Positions 3,505 through 14,659 of a stretch of DNA of 40,436 bases are shown piece by piece. Made by a program: the position numbers and the translations under genes. The DNA is from Parapedobacter defluvii (GTDB taxonomy: Bacteria > Bacteroidota > Bacteroidia > Sphingobacteriales > Sphingobacteriaceae). The notes below the pieces were generated by a model, which was not told the DNA's origin, did no database searches, and worked only from the letters and a program-made list of their open reading frames with translations. The stretch covers positions 1 to 40,436 of the forward strand of contig NZ_BMIK01000030.1 of assembly GCF_014642075.1 (NCBI RefSeq), written 5' to 3'. Every line of letters begins with the position of its first letter. Positions within the stretch are counted from its first letter, which is position 1.

Positions 3505-3739
3505 CCGGCGGAATTATAGTGGTTTAAAATAATGATGAGCACTAAGATACATATTTATCGTTCCGATGGAAGGCTGATGTTTCAAAAAAGTACCGTCGCA
3601 AATCCTATGTCTTTTTTACACTATTTTTATAATGAGTACTTTTTGAACATTTTTTTCCTGGAACGTCCACATATCCTGGTCAACGGTGTATATAGCCATT
3701 AAAACGGATATATGTCAACTCTCATAAAAAAGCTATCTT

Positions 3740-5152
3740 TTAGTCTCTATCTCTCCATCCGCCACCTAAAGATCGATATAAATAGATAAGCGATTGATAT
3801 TTTAAAAGGCGTTCATTACTCATCTGCATCTGTGCCGATAACAACGCCTGTCGAGAAGCAAGGACATCGGTATAATTTGTTGAACTATGGTACAGAAGCA
3901 ATTTTTGCGTATAGCCCAATGCTTCCTGTAATTTTTCAAGTTGATTTTGACGTTTTGTTTCTTGTTCTGATGCAGACTGGTAGCTATATAATGCGTCTGA
4001 AACCTCTTGTCCAGCTAATAGGAGTATTTTCTGAAAATCAAGCACTTTCTCACGATAATCGGATTTTGCTAATTCAAGCCTAGTTTTGTTAAGTCGCTTT
4101 GAGAAAACCGGTTGCAATAATCCCCCGCCAACATTCGCAAAGAAACCCGATGGCGTAAACCAATTTGAAAAACCAAAGTTCGTGAATCCACTTGCAGCCT
4201 GAATTGTCAAAGTCGGATAAAAGGCTTTTCTGGCGACGTTAATATTCTCGAAATACGATGCTATTTCAAATTCAGCGGCCATGACATCCGGTCTATTCTG
4301 CAATAATTGTAGCGGGACACCTATGTCAACAGATGGGAAAGATGGTTGAACCGTAAACGAACTACGCTCTACGCTACGTGGAGATATTCCTAAAAGAACA
4401 TTTAGCGCATTTTCCCTCATTCTGATTTGTCTGTACACGGAGGGCAACATGTTTTGAGCATCCAGAAGAGCAGCCTCACTTTGTGCAACAGCAGCACCAG
4501 TTACAATACTGGATTCTTGTAGTCGTTTCATTGCGATTACTTCCTCCTGCCTGGTGGCTATGGTATGGTTAAGGATATCAACTTGTTCGTCCAATGCCAA
4601 GAGCTGATAATATAAATCGGCAATCTCGGCAATTAGTTGCGTTTGGATTGCACGATGTGTAGATTCCTCCTGCATCAACCTAAAGAAAATTGCTTTCTTG
4701 CTATTCTTCAATTTTCCCCATACATCAATTTCCCACGATGTTTTTAACCCCAATTCATAGGTGGTTGCATTATCTACAAATCCAAAACTTTGTGGGAAAG
4801 CCATGCGAGAACGTGCGACTTGTCCATTTAATGATAAGTCGGGCAAAAAGGCGGCTTTTGATTGTGATACCAAAGACCTGGCTTTGCTAATACGCTCCAA
4901 CCCAATTTTTAGGTCTAGATTGTTCTTTAAACCTGTATCAATCAAATTCCGCAATTGTTTATCACCAAAGAAATCCTGCCAAGGTAACAAGGCTATATTT
5001 GCCGTGTCTTGTAGATTGACGTCCCTATACAATGACGCGTTTACCTGTGCAGTCTTTTCATATGTTCTCTTTGTCATACATGATGTGTAGACAATTGTAC
5101 AAATTGAGCATATAATATATCGGTATATAAATTGTAACTTCATGATTTTCAA
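3740..5152 (-). CDS. RND efflux system outer-membrane factor (TolC/OprM/NodT family lipoprotein)
   Basis: A 470-aa outer-membrane channel subunit of the tripartite pump encoded just upstream. The N-terminus is hydrophobic and ends in a Cys after VYTS, a relaxed Bacteroidota-type lipobox, so a lipoprotein is likely. The body shows two OEP/TolC repeats rich in coiled coil. The RPDVMAAEFEIASYFENINVARKAFYPTL stretch (about residues 285-315) is typical of NodT/OprM proteins. It is the last gene of the adaptor-pump-channel set, 12 bp after the pump gene. No convincing terminator was found between it and the AGCS gene. Confidence 0.93.
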   Translation of the reverse strand: MKIMKLQFIYRYIICSICTIVYTSCMTKRTYEKTAQVNASLYRDVNLQDTANIALLPWQDFFGDKQLRNLIDTGLKNNLDLKIGLERISKARSLVSQSKAAFLPDLSLNGQVARSRMAFPQSFGFVDNATTYELGLKTSWEIDVWGKLKNSKKAIFFRLMQEESTHRAIQTQLIAEIADLYYQLLALDEQVDILNHTIATRQEEVIAMKRLQESSIVTGAAVAQSEAALLDAQNMLPSVYRQIRMRENALNVLLGISPRSVERSSFTVQPSFPSVDIGVPLQLLQNRPDVMAAEFEIASYFENINVARKAFYPTLTIQAASGFTNFGFSNWFTPSGFFANVGGGLLQPVFSKRLNKTRLELAKSDYREKVLDFQKILLLAGQEVSDALYSYQSASEQETKRQNQLEKLQEALGYTQKLLLYHSSTNYTDVLASRQALLSAQMQMSNERLLKYQSLIYLYRSLGGGWRDRD

Positions 5153-5164
5153 ATAAATTTTAGT

Positions 5165-8100
5165 CTAGTAATGCCTCTTGGCATTGTTACTACCATCATT
5201 AAGAACTGTTGTTCCCGAAATCCTTTCCTGCAAATACTGAAAAAGAATAAAAAGGGATGGGATCACCAATACGCCGATAACCGTACCGATTAGCATACCG
5301 CCGACAGCAGCCGTTCCTATTGACTTATTACTTAAAGCGCCAGCTCCAGTGGCTAGCATAAGCGGTAGTAGGCCGAAAATAAAAGCGAAAGATGTCATTA
5401 GAATAGGACGTAGCCGCACTTTTGCACCTTCCATTGCGGCGTCTACGATGGTTTGTCCCAAACGCCTGTTCTGCAGGGCAAATTCGACAATCAAAATGGC
5501 ATTCTTCGCTAATAGGCCCAACAACATAATCAAGCTGATTTGAAGAAAAATATTGTTTTCGATACCAAAAATCCGTGCAAATAAAAACGCTCCAGATAAT
5601 CCTATTGGTAGCGATAATAAAACGGAAAATGGCAGAATATAACTTTTGAACTGCGCGCTTAAGAGAAAGTAAACGAAAAGTAAGGACAGGATGAAGATGA
5701 TAACGGTCTGGTTTCCGCTCAGACTTTCCTCGCGGGTAAGTCCGGCATATTCAAACCCGTACCCCTTTGGCAATGTCTTTGATGCAACCTCTTCTATGGC
5801 ACGTATCGCGTCCCCTGAACTATAGCCCGGATTAGGCGCCCCATTGACATAAGCAGCATTGAAAAGGTTGAACCTCGTAAGGAATTCCGGCCCATAGACT
5901 TTTTTCAGATCTATAAAACTGATAATCGGCGCCATTTTCCCATCATTGCTTTTCACATAAAGCTGTTCTATGGCCTCCCTGTTCTTTCGCGCATCTGGAC
6001 CTGCTTGTATCATGACCTTATACTGTTTGCCAAACCGATTAAAATTGGTGGAATAGATTCCTCCCAAATAGCCCTGTAACGTCGTTAGTATTTCCGTTAC
6101 AGATACATCTGCCTCTTTCGCTCTTTCTACATTTACCGTCACTTCATATTGCGGAAAGTTGGTGTTGAATGACGAGGTTGCATACATAATTTCGGGGCGT
6201 TGGTTTAATTCACCGAGGAAATTGCCGATAACTTTCTCAAATGCACCGTATGCACCGTTTGTCCGGTCCTGTAGCTGCACTTCGAAACCTGTGTTACTTC
6301 CGAAGCCCTGCAACGTAGGTCCGGCAAAGAATACAATATTGGCATCTTTGATAAATGCTGATTTGGCAAACAGGGTTTGTACGACGTGGTTAATGTCCTG
6401 TTCTTTGCGAGGGCGCTCTCTCCAGTGTTTCAGCTTAATAAAGACGACTGCGTATGAACTGCCGTTGCCACTAAAAAAATCCATACCTGCTAACCGTGAA
6501 GAATATTCCACTTCTGGGATGGTCATTGCCACGCTATCCACCAGATCGGTGATCCGTTCAGTTTCTTCTAAAGACGTGGATGGATTTAAAATAATATTAG
6601 CGTAAATAGATGAGCTATCTTCATTAGGTACAAATCCGGTTTGCGTATTTTTAACGAGATAATAAAAAAGTGCACCAAATAACGCTACGCTTCCCAATGA
6701 CAACCATTTCCACTTGTTTAAGAAATGTAGTATCCCTAGATAACGATCCGTCATCCGGTCAAACCCCTTATTAAATGCTGTTTTGAAACGTGTCGCGAAT
6801 CCTTTTTTCTTTTCGTCTTCTTCTACGGCCGGTTTCAAAAGCATAGCGCATAATGCGGGACTAAGCGTCAAGGCATTAACAGCAGAAATCAATATAGCGA
6901 CTGCTAACGTTATGCCGAACTCTTTATAGAAAATTCCGACCGATCCATCAATGAATGTTACGGGCACAAAAACAGCCGCCATGACTAAGGTGATGGAGAT
7001 AATCGCCGTCGTCAACTCATGCATCGCGTTTATTGTAGCTTGTTTTGCAGAACTCGCTCCATGATGCAATTTGGTATGTACCGCTTCCACTACAATAATC
7101 GCATCATCTACGACAATACCGATAGAAAGCACCAAGGCAAAAAGTGTCAACAAATTGATCGTAAAACCAAAAATATTCAAAAAGAAAAACGTCCCAATCA
7201 AGGCTACCGGAACTGCAATTGCAGGAATTAGGGTGGAACGCCAGTCTTGTAAGAATAGCAGTACAACGATAAAGACTAAAATGAAAGCCTCCACTAACGT
7301 GGAAATCAATTTGCTGATGGAAGCTAGTAGGAAATCATTGGAATTGGCATAAACCACAAACTTCGTTCCTTTAGGCAACTCGGCTTCGGCATCAAGTAGG
7401 ATTTGCTCACATTCTTTTATAATATTATGAGCGTTTGATCCTGCGGTCTGATTTATGGCTACGTAGGTACCTGCCTTTCCGTAAGCGGTGATCGATGTAG
7501 CGTTTGAATACGCGCCCATTTCTATATCAGCTACATCCCTTAACCTTAAAAACCTCCCTGCTTCGGTAGCTCGGATAACGATATCCCCGAATTTCTCTTC
7601 ATTTTCCAGACGGCCGGTGTATTTTAGGGAGTATTGAAATGTCTGTCCACTATTTTCTCCGATCTTTCCCGGAGCAGCCTCTACGTTTTGCTCAGCAAGA
7701 GCTTGAATTATATCGGACGGGGCCAGTCCATAGGAAGCCATTTCAGTTGGTTTCAACCAGACCCGCATACTATATTCTTTTCCTCCGGAAATGGAAGCGT
7801 CACCTACGCCATTGACACGTTTTAATTTGGGCAGGATATTAATCCGAACATAGTTCTCTAAAAATACCTGATTATAGTGCTCATCCTCACTATAATACAT
7901 GAAACTGAATATCTCACTGCTCAGACGCTTTGTTGTCGTAATACCATATCTGACAACTTCTTCCGGCAATTGGCTCATCGCCTGATTTACCCGGTTCTGC
8001 ACATTAACTGCTGCCATATCGGCATCGGCTCCTTGATCGAATACAATGGTAATCACACCGGATCCATCGTTACTTGCCTTAGAACTCATGTAGGCCATCT

Positions 8101-8320
8101 TTTCAACTCCATTGATTTCTTCTTCCAAAGGCACAATGACGCTTTTCATGACGGTTTCCGAATCCGCTCCTTGGTAGTTTGCAACAACCTGAACCGTCGG
8201 GGGAGCAATTTCCGGATATTGGGTAATAGGTAGCGATAGCAGCCCTAAGATACCGAGTATGACAATAATAACCGATATAACGGTTGACAAAACGGGATTT
8301 TCTATAAATTTTCTTAACAT
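5165..8320 (-). CDS. HAE1-type RND efflux transporter, inner-membrane pump (AcrB/MexB-like)
   Basis: A 1051-aa proton-driven multidrug pump of full family length. It starts MLRKFIENPVLSTVISVIIV, as AcrB homologues do. It has the two large periplasmic loops and twelve transmembrane helices. The proton-relay Asp pair is present in helix 4 (GIVVDDAIIVVEAV, about residue 405) and the helix-10 Lys in LLGLLAKNAILIVEF (about residue 945), so it should be active. Substrates are unknown; the HAE1 class mostly exports hydrophobic and amphiphilic compounds such as drugs, dyes and detergents. It lies 9 bp from the adaptor gene and 12 bp from the channel gene, a tight operon. Confidence 0.97.
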   Translation of the reverse strand: MLRKFIENPVLSTVISVIIVILGILGLLSLPITQYPEIAPPTVQVVANYQGADSETVMKSVIVPLEEEINGVEKMAYMSSKASNDGSGVITIVFDQGADADMAAVNVQNRVNQAMSQLPEEVVRYGITTTKRLSSEIFSFMYYSEDEHYNQVFLENYVRINILPKLKRVNGVGDASISGGKEYSMRVWLKPTEMASYGLAPSDIIQALAEQNVEAAPGKIGENSGQTFQYSLKYTGRLENEEKFGDIVIRATEAGRFLRLRDVADIEMGAYSNATSITAYGKAGTYVAINQTAGSNAHNIIKECEQILLDAEAELPKGTKFVVYANSNDFLLASISKLISTLVEAFILVFIVVLLFLQDWRSTLIPAIAVPVALIGTFFFLNIFGFTINLLTLFALVLSIGIVVDDAIIVVEAVHTKLHHGASSAKQATINAMHELTTAIISITLVMAAVFVPVTFIDGSVGIFYKEFGITLAVAILISAVNALTLSPALCAMLLKPAVEEDEKKKGFATRFKTAFNKGFDRMTDRYLGILHFLNKWKWLSLGSVALFGALFYYLVKNTQTGFVPNEDSSSIYANIILNPSTSLEETERITDLVDSVAMTIPEVEYSSRLAGMDFFSGNGSSYAVVFIKLKHWRERPRKEQDINHVVQTLFAKSAFIKDANIVFFAGPTLQGFGSNTGFEVQLQDRTNGAYGAFEKVIGNFLGELNQRPEIMYATSSFNTNFPQYEVTVNVERAKEADVSVTEILTTLQGYLGGIYSTNFNRFGKQYKVMIQAGPDARKNREAIEQLYVKSNDGKMAPIISFIDLKKVYGPEFLTRFNLFNAAYVNGAPNPGYSSGDAIRAIEEVASKTLPKGYGFEYAGLTREESLSGNQTVIIFILSLLFVYFLLSAQFKSYILPFSVLLSLPIGLSGAFLFARIFGIENNIFLQISLIMLLGLLAKNAILIVEFALQNRRLGQTIVDAAMEGAKVRLRPILMTSFAFIFGLLPLMLATGAGALSNKSIGTAAVGGMLIGTVIGVLVIPSLFILFQYLQERISGTTVLNDGSNNAKRHY

Positions 8321-8329
8321 AATAACTCC

Positions 8330-9460
8330 CTATTTATTTACCGCCTTTATTTTCGTTCCCTCTTTTACATTTGCCAATCCCTCGGCAATAATCTTTTCTC
8401 CTCGTTGAAGCCCGCTGGAAACAATAAAATACTCGTTCGACGGGATCTTATCCATTATGCTAACCGGCGCACTTGATACGAGGCCCTCGTTGTCCACTTT
8501 ATAGACATATTTCTTGCCCTGTAATTCATAAGTAGCCCTTTGCGGAATCAATATGGCTTCTTGGACTTTTTCATACATTCTTAAGGTTGCGCTGTTCCCA
8601 CTTCTTATCATGCCGTCTGGATTTTGGAAAACAGCGCGAAAATTTATGCTTCCGGTTTTAGGGTCGACCTGACCACCTATCATATCTATTTTGCCTTTTT
8701 GGTCAAATTGATTGCCATCAGGTAGGATTAGCGCTATTTCCGCTTGCTGTTGAAGATAATCAACAAGTGATTTATTTTTAGCTTCATGCAAAAGGCGTAT
8801 AAATTGCTTTTCGTTTATAGAAAAATAAGCGTGTATTTTGGATATATCCGAAAGTTGAGATAATGGCTCGATGGACGAACTACTGACCAGACTTCCTGTT
8901 TTATAGGGTATCAGCCCTATCACACCGGCAAACGGTGCACGGATCTGAGAATACGCTACATTCGCGCTTGCAGTGTTCTTAATTGCTTTCGCTTGGGAAA
9001 GCTGGGCATTCTTATTCGCAAGGTTTTGCAGAGCAGATTCCAGTTCATATTTCCCCATAATCCCTTCATCAACGAGCGGTTTAGTCCTATCAACAAGTAA
9101 CTGGGCATCCGCCAACTCTGCCTCCATACTTTTTATCGCCGCTGACGATCGTTCAAGCTCTTCTTGGTATTCCGGGGCAAATATGCGGAATAGCAGTTGC
9201 CCTTTAGTTACGTACTGGCCTTCGTCTACGAAAATACCATCAATGAAACCATTTACTTTTGCGCGTAGCTCAATATCCTGAACTCCCTGCAAACTCACGG
9301 GAAAATCCGTATATACTGTGGTTGCTTGAGGTGTTAAGGTATAGGCAGGATATTCTTCAAGCGAAACGCCATCCTGTACGTGTTGCTGGCTATTATTACA
9401 GGCCAAAGTCGCCGCGAGTATACACGGGACGAATAATTTAATGATCGATTGATTTGCCAT
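8330..9460 (-). CDS. RND efflux periplasmic adaptor (membrane fusion protein, AcrA-like lipoprotein)
   Basis: A 376-aa periplasmic adaptor linking pump and outer-membrane channel. The N-terminal hydrophobic segment ends ATLAC, a probable lipidation Cys. Next come a barrel-sandwich/lipoyl half (VNGFIDGIFVDEGQYVTKGQLLFRI), an alpha-helical hairpin (about residues 95-165), the second lipoyl half (IRAPFAGVIGLIPYKTGSLV), a beta-barrel and the membrane-proximal domain (GEKIIAEGLANVKEGTKI). It is the first gene of the pump operon. The 128-bp gap upstream, between it and the AraC-type regulator, carries a candidate promoter and a short direct repeat. Confidence 0.95.
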   Translation of the reverse strand: MANQSIIKLFVPCILAATLACNNSQQHVQDGVSLEEYPAYTLTPQATTVYTDFPVSLQGVQDIELRAKVNGFIDGIFVDEGQYVTKGQLLFRIFAPEYQEELERSSAAIKSMEAELADAQLLVDRTKPLVDEGIMGKYELESALQNLANKNAQLSQAKAIKNTASANVAYSQIRAPFAGVIGLIPYKTGSLVSSSSIEPLSQLSDISKIHAYFSINEKQFIRLLHEAKNKSLVDYLQQQAEIALILPDGNQFDQKGKIDMIGGQVDPKTGSINFRAVFQNPDGMIRSGNSATLRMYEKVQEAILIPQRATYELQGKKYVYKVDNEGLVSSAPVSIMDKIPSNEYFIVSSGLQRGEKIIAEGLANVKEGTKIKAVNK

Positions 9461-9521
9461 ATATTGATTGTAAAAAGATTTAGATAACTACAGGCTCAAC
9501 GACCTAAGTAGTTATAATTGG

Positions 9522-9548
9522 CAAAATTACCCCCTACAGAGGGCTACA
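9522..9548 (-). promoter_or_regulatory. Candidate promoter and direct-repeat activator site of the efflux operon
   Basis: In the gap before the adaptor gene the minus strand has TAATTTTG (9529 to 9522), which fits the Bacteroidota -7 box TAnnTTTG. Directly upstream are two TGTAG half-sites (plus-strand CTACA at 9534-9538 and 9544-9548), one helical turn apart, followed by a C-rich flank. No good TTTG -33 element is found at 19-21 bp, which would suit an activator-dependent promoter. That the adjacent AraC-type protein binds here is inference. Confidence 0.4.
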
Positions 9549-9588
9549 AAAAGGGGTGAACGGCAGGTTAGTTGGCAAAAAGGTAAGG

Positions 9589-10458
9589 TTATGAGGTTAA
9601 CCTTTGCCTGTATAGAATGGGGCTTATCCCCACATATTTTTTAAAATATTTCCCGAACGTGCTTTGATCGGGAAAGTTGAGCGCGTCCGCAACCGCTGAA
9701 ATACTGAGTCTGTTATCTTGTAATAATATCTTCGCTTCAAGAATTACAACATGCTGTATCCATTCACTTGCAGGCATTCCTGTCTCTGATGAGACCGTCT
9801 GACTAAGGTGCTTAGGATGAACATATAACAGATTTGCATAGAATGATACGGCTCTGCTTTTTTTATAGTAGGTGAAAACGGCTTCCTTAAACTTAGTAAC
9901 CAGCAACTTTGTATGACCAATGTTTGGAGGGTTTTTTAAGTACAAATGACCAATTTCATTGATCATACTGTAGACAATTCCACGCACAACTTCCTTGTGA
10001 AAGTGAGATTTCGAAGATTCTCTTGATTTTAAAACAGCAAACATTTTCTTGGATATTGCAAAATCTTCTTGCCCTAAGTTTATTACATAGCCGCCATTGT
10101 TAGCGAATAATGCAAACGCATGGAGAATATTGGACGCTATCAATTTCTCTTGAAGAAATTCTTCGGAAAACAGTAGCGACTCCATCTCGCAAGGCGTGTC
10201 TGTGGTAACCCAACGTTTGATCGATGAAGTTCCCGTAAAGATAATAGCGGGACCAGAAATGTAATGTTCGGTTAGGTCGGTATAAAATCTAATTTCACCT
10301 TGTTGTATAAGTCCGATGCCATAATAGTGTGAACGATAAGGTTCTGTAGGATAATATTCCACTTTGTTGGTTGGCATATAAATGTAATGTCTATCAGATC
10401 CTAACTCGGAAAATGCTTTCTGCAGGAGCTCTAATGTCATCCACTTAATATTGCCCAT
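9589..10458 (-). CDS. AraC-family transcriptional regulator
   Basis: A 289-aa regulator. The N-terminal ~180 residues look like a cupin-type effector/dimer domain (HYYGIGLIQQGEIRFY, ISGPAIIFTG). The C-terminal ~90 residues form the double helix-turn-helix of AraC/XylS proteins, ending LNFPDQSTFGKYFKKYVGISPILYRQ, the family hallmark. The start is placed at MGNIKWMTLELL. An ATG 14 codons further upstream would overlap the methyltransferase gene by 28 bp and adds residues without family resemblance. It lies directly upstream of the RND efflux genes in the same orientation and probably controls them. Confidence 0.9.
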   Translation of the reverse strand: MGNIKWMTLELLQKAFSELGSDRHYIYMPTNKVEYYPTEPYRSHYYGIGLIQQGEIRFYTDLTEHYISGPAIIFTGTSSIKRWVTTDTPCEMESLLFSEEFLQEKLIASNILHAFALFANNGGYVINLGQEDFAISKKMFAVLKSRESSKSHFHKEVVRGIVYSMINEIGHLYLKNPPNIGHTKLLVTKFKEAVFTYYKKSRAVSFYANLLYVHPKHLSQTVSSETGMPASEWIQHVVILEAKILLQDNRLSISAVADALNFPDQSTFGKYFKKYVGISPILYRQRLTS

Positions 10459-10472
10459 GTTTAAAATAACGT

Positions 10473-11213
10473 TTATCGGTAAAAGCAGAACATGGTGCAC
10501 ATACCAAACGATAGTGACTTTGCTTTCACGCTTGTAAATCCCACTTTCTTTAGTAACTCCACAAAACGCTTTTTATCAGGGAAACGTTTTACGGATTTTT
10601 GCAGGTAACTATATGCTTTACCTTCTCCGGTTATGACCTTGCCTAAAACAGGGACGAAATGATGAAAATAAAGTTCATGGAATAGTTTTACGGCAAGGTT
10701 TTTCGGCTCTGACAATTCCAAAATTACGCCAATGCCCCCAGGTTTTAAAACGCGGTACATATTGCTCAATCCTCGTTCGAGGTCTTCGAAATTGCGAACA
10801 CCGAACGTACAGGAAACCGCATCAAAAGTATTTGCTTTGAATTTAAGATTTTCTGCATCTGCAATAGCAAAATCCACATTGTCCGAGTTTGCAATTTCAC
10901 TTTTCTTCCGCGAAGCCTCCTTAATCATCTTTGAAGAAAAATCAACTCCAATCACATCCGATGTCGGCATGAGCCGTGCCAACTGGAATGCGAAATCTCC
11001 CGTTCCTGTCGCTATATCCAGCAATGCATTTGGGTGGTGTTTCTTGACACATATTGCAGCCTTGAGACGCCAGTTTTTATCGATGCCCAATGTCATAATC
11101 CTGTTCAAAAGATCATATCGGAAAGCAATCCTGTCAAACATATGTTCAATTTGTGTCGCTTTTGACCGTCTTCTGTCATTATATGGAAGAATAGCTTGAT
11201 TTCTGTTGCTCAT
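10473..11213 (-). CDS. UbiE/MenG-family class I SAM-dependent methyltransferase
   Basis: A 246-aa protein with the UbiE/MenG hallmarks: YDLLNRIMTLGIDKNWR (residues 33-49), the SAM-binding motif I LDIATGTGD (65-73), VSCTFGVRNFEDLERGL (133-149) and a C-terminal SFGMCTMFCF. The family methylates 2-demethylmenaquinone (or the ubiquinone precursor) at the membrane face. It lies between a TetR and an AraC regulator and upstream of a multidrug pump, not in a menaquinone cluster, so it may be a second copy with an altered substrate. The family is clear; whether it is the housekeeping MenG cannot be decided from this window. Confidence 0.88.
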   Translation of the reverse strand: MSNRNQAILPYNDRRRSKATQIEHMFDRIAFRYDLLNRIMTLGIDKNWRLKAAICVKKHHPNALLDIATGTGDFAFQLARLMPTSDVIGVDFSSKMIKEASRKKSEIANSDNVDFAIADAENLKFKANTFDAVSCTFGVRNFEDLERGLSNMYRVLKPGGIGVILELSEPKNLAVKLFHELYFHHFVPVLGKVITGEGKAYSYLQKSVKRFPDKKRFVELLKKVGFTSVKAKSLSFGMCTMFCFYR

Positions 11214-11245
11214 GAAATATTCTATTTAGTATTATCACTGGTTAG

Positions 11246-11833
11246 CTATCGTACATTTTTGCAATGGGGAGAAAGTATAGAGAGCATCGTGGAAACAAAA
11301 TCCCGCTTTGCCTCCTCGCCAGTATACTGCTTGAACAATGCATTATAGGATATCCAAAAGTCTCCGACGATAAATAAATTTTTTATCAGCTGTTCCTCCA
11401 CCAGATCGTCAAGCGGAAACAAAACTTCCTGATCTTGAAGTCTCTGCAACCACGTTTTAAATTGGTTCTCGCGCTTCGTAATCAATTTCCCGTAGTCATT
11501 TTTTATTTCCGGTATCCAGATACTGATCTCGACAAAATGAATAAAAAAGAAACGGAACTTGTCTACCTGCTCGTATATAAGTTCTAATGTGGGGGTTAGA
11601 TCTTCGAGACGTTCCATTGGAAGTTCCTGAACCTTATCGACAATCCCGTCATACCAGTTGGTAAGCTCCCGGAAAAGCGCTATCACGATATCTTCGGTAT
11701 GCTTAAAGTGGTAATGAAGATTACCCGGACTGATGGACATCGAACTGGCTATATGTCTCGTTGTCGTATTTCGGATTCCGTTTTCGTTGAAAAGGCTTCT
11801 CGCGGCATCCAATATCTTATCGCTGGTTTTCAT
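11246..11833 (-). CDS. TetR/AcrR-family transcriptional repressor
   Basis: A 195-aa repressor. The N-terminal helix-turn-helix is DKILDAARSLFNENGIRNTTTRHIASSMSISPGNLHYHFKHTEDIV (about residues 4-50). The C-terminal ~140 residues form the helical ligand/dimer domain, with a Phe-rich segment (FRFFFIHFVEISIW). The open frame extends 44 codons further upstream, but the start at MKTSDKILDAARSLF is preferred because the family motif begins there. The longer version would also be read through a perfect palindrome that looks like its operator. The stop is 32 bp before the methyltransferase start, so tetR heads a possible tetR-ubiE-araC transcript. Confidence 0.92.
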   Translation of the reverse strand: MKTSDKILDAARSLFNENGIRNTTTRHIASSMSISPGNLHYHFKHTEDIVIALFRELTNWYDGIVDKVQELPMERLEDLTPTLELIYEQVDKFRFFFIHFVEISIWIPEIKNDYGKLITKRENQFKTWLQRLQDQEVLFPLDDLVEEQLIKNLFIVGDFWISYNALFKQYTGEEAKRDFVSTMLSILSPHCKNVR

Positions 11834-11870
11834 TTTGTAAAAATAGAACAATTGTTCTATTTTTACAAAA
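11833..11870. promoter_or_regulatory. 38-bp perfect palindrome: tetR operator with symmetric promoter
   Basis: The arms (left arm TTTTGTAAAAATAGAACAA at 11833-11851, right arm 11852-11870) match at all 19 positions. The outermost base is part of the tetR start codon. On either strand the palindrome reads TTTG-N20-TATTTTTA, one base off the Bacteroidota consensus TTTG-N19-21-TAnnTTTG. It could therefore fire toward tetR (ATG 4 nt after the -7 box) and toward the hydrolase gene at 11948. The TAGAACA-AT-TGTTCTA core (11844-11859) lies in the -33/-7 spacer, ideal for repression, and recurs at 13735-13750. Confidence 0.82.
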
Positions 11871-11947
11871 AAAGCACTTACTTTTACCTCTCGGAGATAA
11901 GAACTCGCTAACAGAGCAGCTTTGATCCATGAGCAAATTAAATAGTT

Positions 11948-12712
11948 ATGACAGAAATTTACCACTTAAACTGTGTCAATATCGTGTCTCCGTATGCTGA
12001 TAATGTTTGCGGACATTGCCAGCTTTTGAAGCAAAAAGATCGGATGGCGCTGATCGATACCGGCATCGGTCTTCTTGACAGCCAGCTGCCCGAAGAAAGG
12101 ATAGGACACGAACTTGTTAAAATAACAGGATATCGATTTGATGAAAATCAAACCGCTGTTAGGCAAATTGAACGTCTGGGATTAAACCCCGGACAGGTAG
12201 CCGATTGCATCATTTCCCATCTGGATAACGACCATATCGGTGGACTTGCCGATTTTCCCCATGCGACGGTGCATGTCGGCAGGGAGGAATATGAAAATTA
12301 TATGTCGGGGAATCCGAGATATCTGAAAATACCGTTGCAGCATAACCCGGCCATTAAAACCTATGGGACATCAGATAGGCTGTGGTTCGGCTTCGAAGCC
12401 AGAAAAGTAGTTACTGCACTAGACATCGAAATATTGTTGATACCGCTTCCCGGACACACATTGGGCCATTGCGGGGTTGCTATAAAAAACGGTGACAGAT
12501 GGTTGTTTTATGTAGCAGATGCATATTATCTACGGGAAGAATTGTCGGATATGGACCACCCTGTTCATGAACTGGCGGAGATAAGGGCAGACGATAATAA
12601 GATGCGCATGGATACCGTAGAGAAAATCCGTAAGTTGATGCAAGCCCATCCGGAAATCGAAATTTTCGGATACCATGACATCAGAGAATTCGAACAATAT
12701 AATTCAAAGTAA
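11948..12712 (+). CDS. Metallo-beta-lactamase-fold metallohydrolase
   Basis: A 254-aa protein of the MBL-fold hydrolase superfamily. The metal-binding signature is S-H91-L-D93-N-D95-H96 IGG, where the second His of the usual HxHxDH is Asp. The third-motif His is in PGH170TLGH, the bridging Asp is D191 (FYVADAYY) and the late His is in GYH243D. This Asp-substituted variant occurs in lactonase/glyoxalase-II-like subgroups, but the substrate cannot be assigned. It is a hydrolase (thioester, lactone, phosphoester or similar), probably cytosolic since no signal peptide is seen. It is divergent from tetR across the 38-bp palindrome and 22 bp upstream of the acetyltransferase gene. Confidence 0.88.
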   Translation: MTEIYHLNCVNIVSPYADNVCGHCQLLKQKDRMALIDTGIGLLDSQLPEERIGHELVKITGYRFDENQTAVRQIERLGLNPGQVADCIISHLDNDHIGGLADFPHATVHVGREEYENYMSGNPRYLKIPLQHNPAIKTYGTSDRLWFGFEARKVVTALDIEILLIPLPGHTLGHCGVAIKNGDRWLFYVADAYYLREELSDMDHPVHELAEIRADDNKMRMDTVEKIRKLMQAHPEIEIFGYHDIREFEQYNSK

Positions 12713-12734
12713 CCGATACAAATAACAGGACAAG

Positions 12735-13253
12735 ATGATGATGATGATGATAAATAATAGTACAAAAGCTGATATTGACGAAATTTTTAGGCTTTATAAG
12801 ATAGCAACGGACTTTCAAAAAACGAGGTTTACGGTCCACTGGCCGGAGTTCGAGCTTGCGCTGGTGGAAAACGAAATCAACGAGAAACGACAATGGAAAC
12901 TGGAGATCGATGGCAGGATTGCTTGTGTCTGGGCGACGACGTTCGATGATCCACAGATATGGGAAGAGCGGAATGCAGATCCTTCCGTTTACATTCACCG
13001 GATAGCGACGAATCCTGATTTCAGAGGACAAAATCTAGTGGCTGAAATTGTAAATTGGGCAAAGGACTATGCAGCTGAAAACGATAAGAAATTTATAAGA
13101 ATGGATACCGTGGGAGATAATACAAAATTGATTGCTTATTACGGAAAATGCGGATTCGAATATCTGGGACCTCTAAAGCTCAGAAATACGGAAGGACTTC
13201 CGGCACACTACGATAATGCAACCGTCAGTTTGTTTGAAATTAAACTAAAATAA
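12735..13253 (+). CDS. GNAT-family N-acetyltransferase
   Basis: A 172-aa protein with the GNAT acetyl-CoA-binding signature IHRIATNPDFRGQNLVAEIV (about residues 87-106), followed by the usual IRMDTVGDNTKLIAYYGKCGF (substrate end and Asn/Tyr region). The reaction is acetyl transfer from acetyl-CoA to an amine; the acceptor is unknown. The start is ambiguous because the gene opens with five consecutive ATG codons (12735-12749). It lies 22 bp after the hydrolase gene and 3 bp before the DinB-like gene, so the three form one transcription unit. Confidence 0.9.
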   Translation: MMMMMINNSTKADIDEIFRLYKIATDFQKTRFTVHWPEFELALVENEINEKRQWKLEIDGRIACVWATTFDDPQIWEERNADPSVYIHRIATNPDFRGQNLVAEIVNWAKDYAAENDKKFIRMDTVGDNTKLIAYYGKCGFEYLGPLKLRNTEGLPAHYDNATVSLFEIKLK

Positions 13254-13256
13254 AAA

Positions 13257-13715
13257 ATGTCAGCATCCTTGATAATAACTTTGAAAACACTATTTGAGCG
13301 GGATCTTAACAAGCTCAAAGCGGAGATAGAGTCCTACCAAGATGAACGAAATATCTGGCGTACTGAAAAAGGAATAGCAAACTCTGCAGGAAACTTATGT
13401 TTGCATCTTATAGGCAACCTGAACAGCTATATCGGCGCTGAAATTGGCAAAACCGGTTATGTGCGTAACCGTGCCGGGGAATTCGCATTGAAAGATATTC
13501 CCCGTACAGAATTGATAAAGCAAATTGATGACTCTATCGGAGTGGTCAGCGAGGCACTGGACAGACTAACCGAAAAAAATATAGACGACGAATATCCTAT
13601 GCTTGTATTTGAAAAGAAAACAACCTATGTATTCTTTTTGGTTCATCTGACCACTCATTTGGCTTACCATCTGGGACAGATAAATTATCATAGGAGGCTG
13701 ATCGATGTCGCATAG
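13257..13715 (+). CDS. DinB-superfamily (DUF1572-like) four-helix metal-binding protein
   Basis: A 152-aa helical protein. His50 (NLCLHLIGN) and the spaced histidines H130, H134 and H138 in HLTTHLAYHLGQINYHRR match the DinB/YfiT metal-binding triad and the C-terminal HxGQ hallmark. The superfamily includes thiol S-transferases using bacillithiol or mycothiol as well as uncharacterised stress proteins. A bacillithiol-dependent role is possible because bshB1 is present in this window, but that is inference. It is the third gene of the hydrolase-acetyltransferase-DinB unit, 3 bp after the GNAT stop. Confidence 0.85.
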   Translation: MSASLIITLKTLFERDLNKLKAEIESYQDERNIWRTEKGIANSAGNLCLHLIGNLNSYIGAEIGKTGYVRNRAGEFALKDIPRTELIKQIDDSIGVVSEALDRLTEKNIDDEYPMLVFEKKTTYVFFLVHLTTHLAYHLGQINYHRRLIDVA

Positions 13716-13728
13716 GAATGGTGGGTAA

Positions 13729-13773
13729 AAATATTAGAACATTTGTTCTAATATTTCAAATATTGTACTTTTG
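13729..13773 (+). promoter_or_regulatory. Promoter with TetR-type operator for the small membrane-protein pair
   Basis: An inverted repeat with 13-bp arms (13729-13741, 13744-13756) and a 2-nt spacer contains TAGAACA-TT-TGTTCTA, the same core as the palindrome at the tetR start. It overlaps the -33 element of a full-consensus Bacteroidota promoter: TTTG (13742-13745), N20, TACTTTTG (13766-13773). Transcription would begin about 10 nt before the ATG at 13791. A repressor bound here would block RNA polymerase. Confidence 0.82.
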
Positions 13774-13790
13774 CCATAAATTATGTTGTT

Positions 13791-13976
13791 ATGGCAAAGA
13801 AATCAGGAAGTTGGTTATCGAGAAACCTATACGAAATACGGGAAACTTTATTCACCCCGGATCCCAATGATTCTTCTTTTAAAAAGAAGCAGAAAGCTGT
13901 TGGTTGGTATATGTTTTTAATCTTAATGGTATGTGGAGGCTTAGCTATGCTTATCGCAGTTTCTTTCGTGCATTAG
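13791..13976 (+). CDS. Small single-pass membrane protein, unknown function
   Basis: A 61-aa product with a basic/polar N-terminal half (RNLYEIRETLFTPDPND, then KKKQK) and one C-terminal transmembrane segment (GWYMFLILMVCGGLAMLIAVSFV). By the positive-inside rule the N-terminus should be cytosolic. It was not recognised as a named family. It is supported as a real gene by a consensus promoter with operator directly upstream, a proper ATG, and a 46-bp overlap with the next membrane-protein gene that suggests translational coupling. Confidence 0.72.
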   Translation: MAKKSGSWLSRNLYEIRETLFTPDPNDSSFKKKQKAVGWYMFLILMVCGGLAMLIAVSFVH

Positions 13977-14347
13977 TATACCTGCTGGACGACCCTTATT
14001 TCCAATTCTATAGTATCAGCTGGTTTTTAATCCGTTTTACAAGAACTTCGGGGCATCTCATTCCGGTTCTCAATAACTGGTTGACGGATTTTGTATTCGT
14101 ACCGCTGATTATCCACGTAGCGCAATCGGTAAGTCTGTGTATACTTGGCACCTCCAAACCATACCGCTATCCCTTGTTTCAAATCCTCCTGATCCCGGTT
14201 TTAACCGCTTATATCTTTGAGTACATCATGCCACGGATCACACATCACCATACGTCAGACATCTTTGATGTTGTCAGTTATTTTGCTGGCGGCCTTTTTT
14301 ATCGCTATATCCATCAGACTTATTCGATTAAAAAATATGCTAAGTAG
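13931..14347 (+). CDS. Small multi-spanning membrane protein
   Basis: A 138-aa protein with about three to four hydrophobic segments (TDFVFVPLIIHVAQSVSLCIL; YPLFQILLIPVLTAYIFEYIM; the VVSYFAGGLF region) and conserved-looking LLDDPYFQFYSISWFLIRF near the start. From memory it resembles small Bacteroidota membrane proteins that pipelines sometimes label 'magnesium citrate secondary transporter'; that name has no support here and I assign no function. The first in-frame ATG (13931) lies inside the 61-aa gene, in another frame. The two proteins are probably co-made from one TetR-repressed transcript. Confidence 0.75.
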   Translation: MWRLSYAYRSFFRALVYLLDDPYFQFYSISWFLIRFTRTSGHLIPVLNNWLTDFVFVPLIIHVAQSVSLCILGTSKPYRYPLFQILLIPVLTAYIFEYIMPRITHHHTSDIFDVVSYFAGGLFYRYIHQTYSIKKYAK

Positions 14348-14578: not shown

Positions 14579-14585
14579 CTGTTAG

Positions 14586-14659
14586 TGCGCCCACCTGGGC
14601 TCGAACCAGGGACCAAAAGATTATGAGTCTTCTACTCTAACCAACTGAGCTATAGGCGC
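14586..14659 (-). tRNA. tRNA with CAT anticodon (Met elongator or Ile2)
   Basis: A 74-nt cloverleaf on the minus strand. The acceptor GCGCCTA pairs with TGGGCGC (one G-T) and the discriminator base is A. It has U8, D-arm GCTCAGTTGGTTAGAG, anticodon loop CTCATAA, T-arm CCTGG-TTCGAGC-CCAGG, and no encoded CCA. The anticodon is CAT. The GACTCATAATC...TTGGTC stretch also resembles Ile2 tRNAs, whose C34 is converted to lysidine, so Met versus Ile is not settled. A -7-like TAAATTTG lies at 14695-14688 on the same strand. A strong terminator follows. Confidence 0.95.

Follow-up and report, generated by a model that had tools for sequence, protein, structure and literature searches.

A predicted TetR operator common to tetR, a lactonase-like hydrolase operon and a membrane-protein gene pair in Parapedobacter defluvii

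The window, which is the whole 40,436-nucleotide stretch of Parapedobacter defluvii DNA analyzed here, encodes a TetR-family repressor of 195 residues (tetR, 11246 to 11833, reverse strand). The protein consists of an N-terminal TetR_N helix-turn-helix domain (PF00440) and a C-terminal PF13972 domain, both above their Pfam cut-offs, and its AF2 model (pLDDT 93) adopts the all-helical fold of the family, with 3nnr as its best PDB match and 3rh2 also among the closest. The recognition-helix stretch GNLHYHFKHTE, which covers the latter half of the helix-turn-helix and runs on past it, is invariant in 21 aligned sequences (the window and 20 of 26 tetR homologues).

Three forward-strand genes lie on the other side of the tetR start codon. 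The first encodes a metallo-beta-lactamase-fold hydrolase resembling N-acyl-homoserine lactone (AHL) lactonases (11948 to 12712; Pfam Lactamase_B, with support from NCBIfam and the PDB structure of AiiA), the second a GNAT acetyltransferase (12735 to 13253; Pfam Acetyltransf_1), and the third a protein of the DinB/DUF1572 superfamily (13257 to 13715; Pfam DUF1572 and DinB_2). The name DinB does not denote DNA polymerase IV in this case, as the Pfam assignment is to the DinB/DUF1572 superfamily. The hydrolase has its fold in common with the AHL lactonases AiiA and AttM, and AiiA is its best relative in the PDB. Its best NCBIfam relatives are the AttM/AidB/AiiA lactonase models, all far below their cut-offs; at 51.8 bits against an AttM cut-off of 390, it is not assigned to that family. 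AHL lactonases carry the metal motif HxHxDH, whereas the hydrolase and its 20 relatives carry HxDxDH.

MP1 (13791 to 13976, forward strand) encodes a 61-residue protein with one hydrophobic C-terminal stretch and no assigned family. Searches found no NCBIfam match to an E-value of 0.1 and no Pfam match to 0.01; one Pfam match at 0.066 is below its cut-off. Weak Pfam matches scattered over 19 MP1 members (best E 0.0048, to DcuC, in 2 members) are taken as chance. MP2 (13931 to 14347, forward strand) encodes a helical hydrophobic protein of 138 residues whose AF2 model contains five helices (pLDDT 85.5). The window protein matches no Pfam or NCBIfam family above cut-off, NCBIfam gives only weak and scattered matches to 20 MP2 members (best E 0.025), and a fold search of MP2 against the PDB returned no match below E 1. 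Judged by conservation, the open reading frames at 13791 and 13931 both look real. The first 46 nt of MP2 overlap MP1 in a different frame (13931 to 13976). An overlap of exactly this length occurs in 24 of the 26 pairs compared (the window and 25 loci), and in 16 sequences the first base of the inner ATG coincides with a wobble position of MP1; this pattern suggests selection for the inner start codon.

Residues D53, E97, D110 and D113 of MP2 are invariant in 20 aligned sequences. They resemble the D, E and DxxD features that PMC12419801 reports for VanZ-Skillet lipocones. Pfam VanZ (PF04892) matches 4 of 20 MP2 members, at best with E 0.0018 and 19.4 bits against a cut-off of 30.1, and it does not match the MP2 of the window. 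Profile-profile comparison of MP2 with VanZ gives probabilities of 5-17%, against 0.4-0.5% for reversed controls, and is weakened by four doubtful rows among the 30 of the VanZ set (L178, L182, L194 and L196), which are apparently in wrong frames and were kept. MP2 is not assigned to the VanZ family, the PF04892 cut-off not being reached. The VanZ/lipocone superfamily is marked by a membrane four-helix core with conserved acidic residues; against this, MP2 shows five predicted helices and the invariant D/E residues, and its affinity with VanZ and the lipocones is suggestive only.

All of these genes belong to a 10.6-kb block (3710 to 14344) that blastn aligns colinearly, with 91.4% identity, to Sphingobacterium cellulitidis. 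The block carries RND-type efflux genes, an araC-type gene, a ubiE-like methyltransferase gene and the tetR regulon, and it ends with MP2 beside a tRNA-Met gene (14585 to 14659). Its HlyD, AraC and UbiE domains are assigned by Pfam; the pump and outer-membrane genes come from reading the open reading frames. From about the tRNA-Met gene rightwards, the window has sequence in common with 19-kb stretches retrieved from four congeners, and the block is absent from those stretches. Eight congeners contain no MP1 match and no TetR match better than E 3.8e-6, and one of the congeners (G005) has a distant MP2 relative at 34% identity. The block was probably acquired horizontally. In a further genome, G169, the end of the hydrolase operon is likewise about 125 nt away from a tRNA-Met gene.

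The 16-bp element TAGAACANNTGTTCTA occurs twice in the window without mismatch, at 11844 to 11859 (site 1) and at 13735 to 13750 (site 2), in agreement with a preliminary description that had reported TAGAACA-NN-TGTTCTA at both places. Site 1 is the core of predicted operator 1, a perfect 38-bp palindrome of 19 pairs (11833 to 11870) that reaches the tetR start codon at one end. Predicted operator 2 has site 2 as its core and is a 28-bp palindrome (13729 to 13756) in which 13 of 14 pairs match and the innermost fails; this operator is also present in S. cellulitidis (L038). A palindromic operator at its own promoter is a trait of the TetR family, and identical sites, as read from sequence, stand at other promoters of this genome and its relatives.

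These two copies are the only exact ones in the genome (5,796,438 bp in 66 contigs, about 5.8 Mb). The genome-wide scan revealed no crowd of unrelated copies: there are no one-mismatch sites elsewhere and five further places with two mismatches, against 19 places at up to two mismatches, none exact, for the same pattern read backwards. Under a first-order Markov model of the window, a genome is expected to contain 0.015 exact sites, and the 1.9 kb on each side of any one site about 1e-5. The genome scan and this expectation together rule out chance as the source of the two sites, which the preliminary description had also held to be very unlikely. Counting at three mismatches reveals no excess of the motif within the window by itself (3 against 1.65 expected).

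Both operators lie at promoter elements. The Bacteroidota promoter consensus is given as TTTG/TANNTTTG in PMC6847099, which also describes, for F. johnsoniae, a weak -33 motif and a distance of 4-5 nt between the -7 element and the transcription start. The predicted promoter of the membrane pair (13742 to 13773, forward strand) fits this consensus: TTTG (13742 to 13745) lies within operator 2 and is followed, after 20 nt, by the -7 element TACTTTTG (13766 to 13773). The second site overlaps the -33 element, as proposed in the preliminary description. At site 1, the probable -7 element of tetR, TATTTTTA (11838 to 11845, reverse strand), lies in the operator arm, with a -33 TTTG at 11869 to 11866; the start site is deduced from reading the sequence, and the tetR transcript would have almost no leader. 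Several relatives have TAATTTTG or TATTTTTG at the position matching this element. The probable -7 element of the hydrolase operon, TACTTTTA (11879 to 11886, forward strand), begins 19 bp past the operator core, and a TAnnTTTA-like sequence occupies the matching place in other operator-bearing hydrolase relatives. Each of these two -7 elements in the window is one base from consensus.

Most of the MP1 promoters compared take one of two forms. In the first, the -7 element overlaps the outer operator arm; in the second, it lies 15-18 bp downstream, which places the -33 region inside the operator. One locus (L040) has no exact TAnnTTTG at its MP1 promoter. Site 2 of the window has the second form, and the hydrolase promoter at site 1 is likely of the second form as well. 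At each of these promoters, a bound dimer would presumably obstruct polymerase.

The motif accompanies tetR wherever homologues were found. A scan of named genomes yielded 26 tetR homologues of 35-89% identity, mostly from Sphingobacterium, Pedobacter and Chitinophaga, and in every one of them the motif stands upstream of tetR, no farther than about 150 nt away and with no more than two mismatches (21 exact, 4 with one mismatch and 1 with two); related sequences share ancestry, so these and the following counts exceed the number of independent events. The operator flanks differ among many of these relatives and still keep their symmetry. Two Chitinophaga loci, L051 (9939 and 9961) and L055 (364 and 386), have a pair of one-mismatch motifs 22 bp apart upstream of tetR, which perhaps reflects cooperative binding of two dimers.

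Relatives of MP1-MP2 adjoin tetR in 25 of the 26 homologue loci, and tetR, the operator and MP1-MP2 thus constitute the core module. The pair is directly divergent from tetR, with the operator between them, in 24 loci, and one locus (S. cellulitidis, L038) resembles the window in having hydrolase-GNAT-DinB between tetR and the pair and two operators. Sequence distances of TetR and MP2 correlate (r = 0.85 over 23 loci, with none of 5000 permutations as high). In genome G366, tetR follows MP2 in the same orientation, and a two-mismatch motif precedes MP1. As an alternative to the circuit, the action of TetR might be confined to its own promoter and the hydrolase operon at site 1, site 2 being an unbound or irrelevant leftover of duplication. 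Site 2 is indeed less symmetric than site 1, and bacterium A37T11 (L039, G026) has tetR, the operator, the hydrolase and GNAT genes with the pair missing and no MP1 match in its genome. However, an operator common to the pair and tetR is the commonest arrangement found, and the core of site 2 is exact in S. cellulitidis too. One would not expect a site without use to remain exact, and this alternative is very improbable.

MP2 relatives occur in 81 of 351 family genomes (E <= 1e-3). Thirty MP2 loci were examined, one per genome and chosen among the best matches, with few of the remaining MP2 genomes checked for tetR; 26 of the 30 have the motif at up to two mismatches. The other four (G296, G149, G263 and G203) lack it, and no tetR was found in their 3.4-kb loci or their genomes at E <= 1e-8. 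The MP2 of G296 is 88% identical to that of the window. At its MP1 promoter (L144, about 4925 to 5032), the -7 element and leader are kept and unrelated sequence occupies the place of the operator. S. cellulitidis (G257) has a second MP1-MP2 copy, and the 11 kb retrieved for it contain no operator and no tetR; the operator thus does not govern all pairs in genomes that encode tetR.

Across the 351 family genomes, the exact motif occurs at 34 sites in 31 genomes (21 sites for the backwards control), and 29 of the 34 adjoin tetR, MP1 or the hydrolase gene. The remaining five comprise three inside open reading frames (L066, L069 and L073) and two in terminator-like hairpins between convergent genes (L036 and L074). 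A one-mismatch scan of 12 tetR genomes found 25 sites, of which 19 belong to module genes and 6 lie outside the module; the backwards control gave 21 sites, so no further regulon member is claimed.

That another DNA-binding protein reads the motif, tetR being merely its neighbor, is very improbable. The binder is deduced from sequence, the genome encodes three weaker TetR relatives, and a few of the one-mismatch sites are found outside the module; against this, motif and tetR come and go together, being joined at all 26 homologues and both missing at the four examined MP1-MP2 loci whose genomes gave no such tetR at E <= 1e-8, the five exact off-module sites fall in genomes that likewise gave none at this threshold, and a symmetric dyad fits a TetR dimer. 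It is scarcely credible that the repeats are RNA features or chance matches: a terminator reading does hold for off-module L036 and L074, and the other three off-module exact matches lie inside open reading frames, but both window sites stand upstream of genes at promoter elements, symmetry persists in differing flanks, and only 0.015 sites are expected per genome.

The hydrolase operon is linked to this module in part of its family. Hydrolase relatives occur in 21 of the 351 genomes (E <= 1e-30). The eight closest, at least 69% identical and including that of the window, all have the motif upstream with no or one mismatch; they form one clade (support 0.94). None of the 13 more distant hydrolases (at most 62% identity) has the motif within two mismatches in the loci retrieved. 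A hydrolase of 60-61% identity without the motif occurs in five genomes that carry the tetR module (G200, G215, G305, G329 and G350), and the link is therefore clade-restricted. Within the clade, the hydrolase adjoins tetR in three of eight cases (the window, S. cellulitidis and A37T11) and lies apart from tetR-MP1-MP2 in the other five (G169, G251, G281, G293 and G365), either on another contig or at least 130 kb away. On the simplest interpretation, a single recruitment placed the operator in front of the hydrolase gene, where it has been kept because the repressor acts in trans. Pieces resembling tetR also occur near two of these five hydrolase operons. In G169, a fragment like the start of tetR lies beside the hydrolase operon (L142, about 2265 to 2378) with an exact operator, and a tetR without stops lies 148 kb from that operon; in G251, a short tetR-like piece containing a stop lies near the hydrolase gene.

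Taken together, the sites, their rarity, their conservation and their co-occurrence are best explained if TetR, acting through TAGAACANNTGTTCTA, co-controls its own gene, hydrolase-GNAT-DinB and MP1-MP2, and this is very likely the case, with binding, repression and ligand release deduced from the sequence. TetR (11246 to 11833) would bind TAGAACANNTGTTCTA as a dimer. At operator 1 it would cover the promoter of tetR and, on the other side, the upstream end of the promoter of hydrolase-GNAT-DinB; at operator 2 it would cover the -33 end of the MP1-MP2 promoter. Without ligand, TetR would shut off all three units together, its own gene included, and ligand would release all three at once. In related genomes, where the hydrolase operon often lies elsewhere, it would probably be reached in trans. 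The ligand may, as a guess from the nature of the predicted targets (lactonase-like hydrolase, acetyltransferase, DinB-fold protein and membrane proteins), be a small hydrophobic or lactone-like compound.

The single circuit of tetR, hydrolase-GNAT-DinB and membrane pair put forward in the preliminary description thus gains comparative support, including from the five genomes with a distant hydrolase; its layout has to be amended, as the core in relatives is tetR plus the pair with one operator and the two-site layout is rarer (1 of 26). The system is a small TetR regulon of known type and is well supported in silico. It gives a TetR subfamily of Bacteroidota a precise candidate operator and target list, and it ties two uncharacterized membrane protein families to a regulator and a lactonase-like enzyme, which provides a first handle on their role. 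It also offers a natural experiment, in which targets apart from the repressor have kept the operator and four examined pair loci in repressor-less genomes lack it. An unlikely but broader view is that the TetR-MP1-MP2 trio is an undescribed module of Sphingobacteriaceae and relatives, in which the repressor would sense a lactone-like or lipid signal, the overlapping-gene pair (possibly a lipocone-type lipid head-group enzyme and its 61-residue partner) would act on the envelope, and the lactonase-like operon would once have been recruited to the operator to destroy the signal.

The nearest solved relatives of TetR by sequence and fold are the structural-genomics proteins 3nnr (Maqu_3571) and 3rh2 (Sama_0099), with 30% and 28% identity over the fold alignment. 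We know of no operator or ligand for either, and a literature search by the name Maqu_3571 found no paper naming it. To our knowledge, few TetR operators have been mapped in Bacteroidota, and a literature search on the operator and regulator returned nothing recognized among the matches listed. The nearest published operator found is that of KstR, a mycobacterial TetR-family regulator, given as TAGAAC(N2)GTTCTA in PMC1995591. As described there, KstR is likewise a TetR-family autorepressor with the identical half-site TAGAAC, and its operator is common to its own and target promoters and partly overlaps a promoter element. The half-sites are four bases apart here (ANNT) and two in KstR; with AAC and GTT spaced in this way, the KstR operator core TnnAACnnGTTnnA is not present, and membership was rejected. 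The KstR-type chain matched by sequence is KstR2 (PDB 4w97), and the match spans residues 6-80 only. The resemblance is one of analogy, not membership: KstR controls a large regulon for lipid degradation, whereas the regulon in the window would consist of two or three target units.
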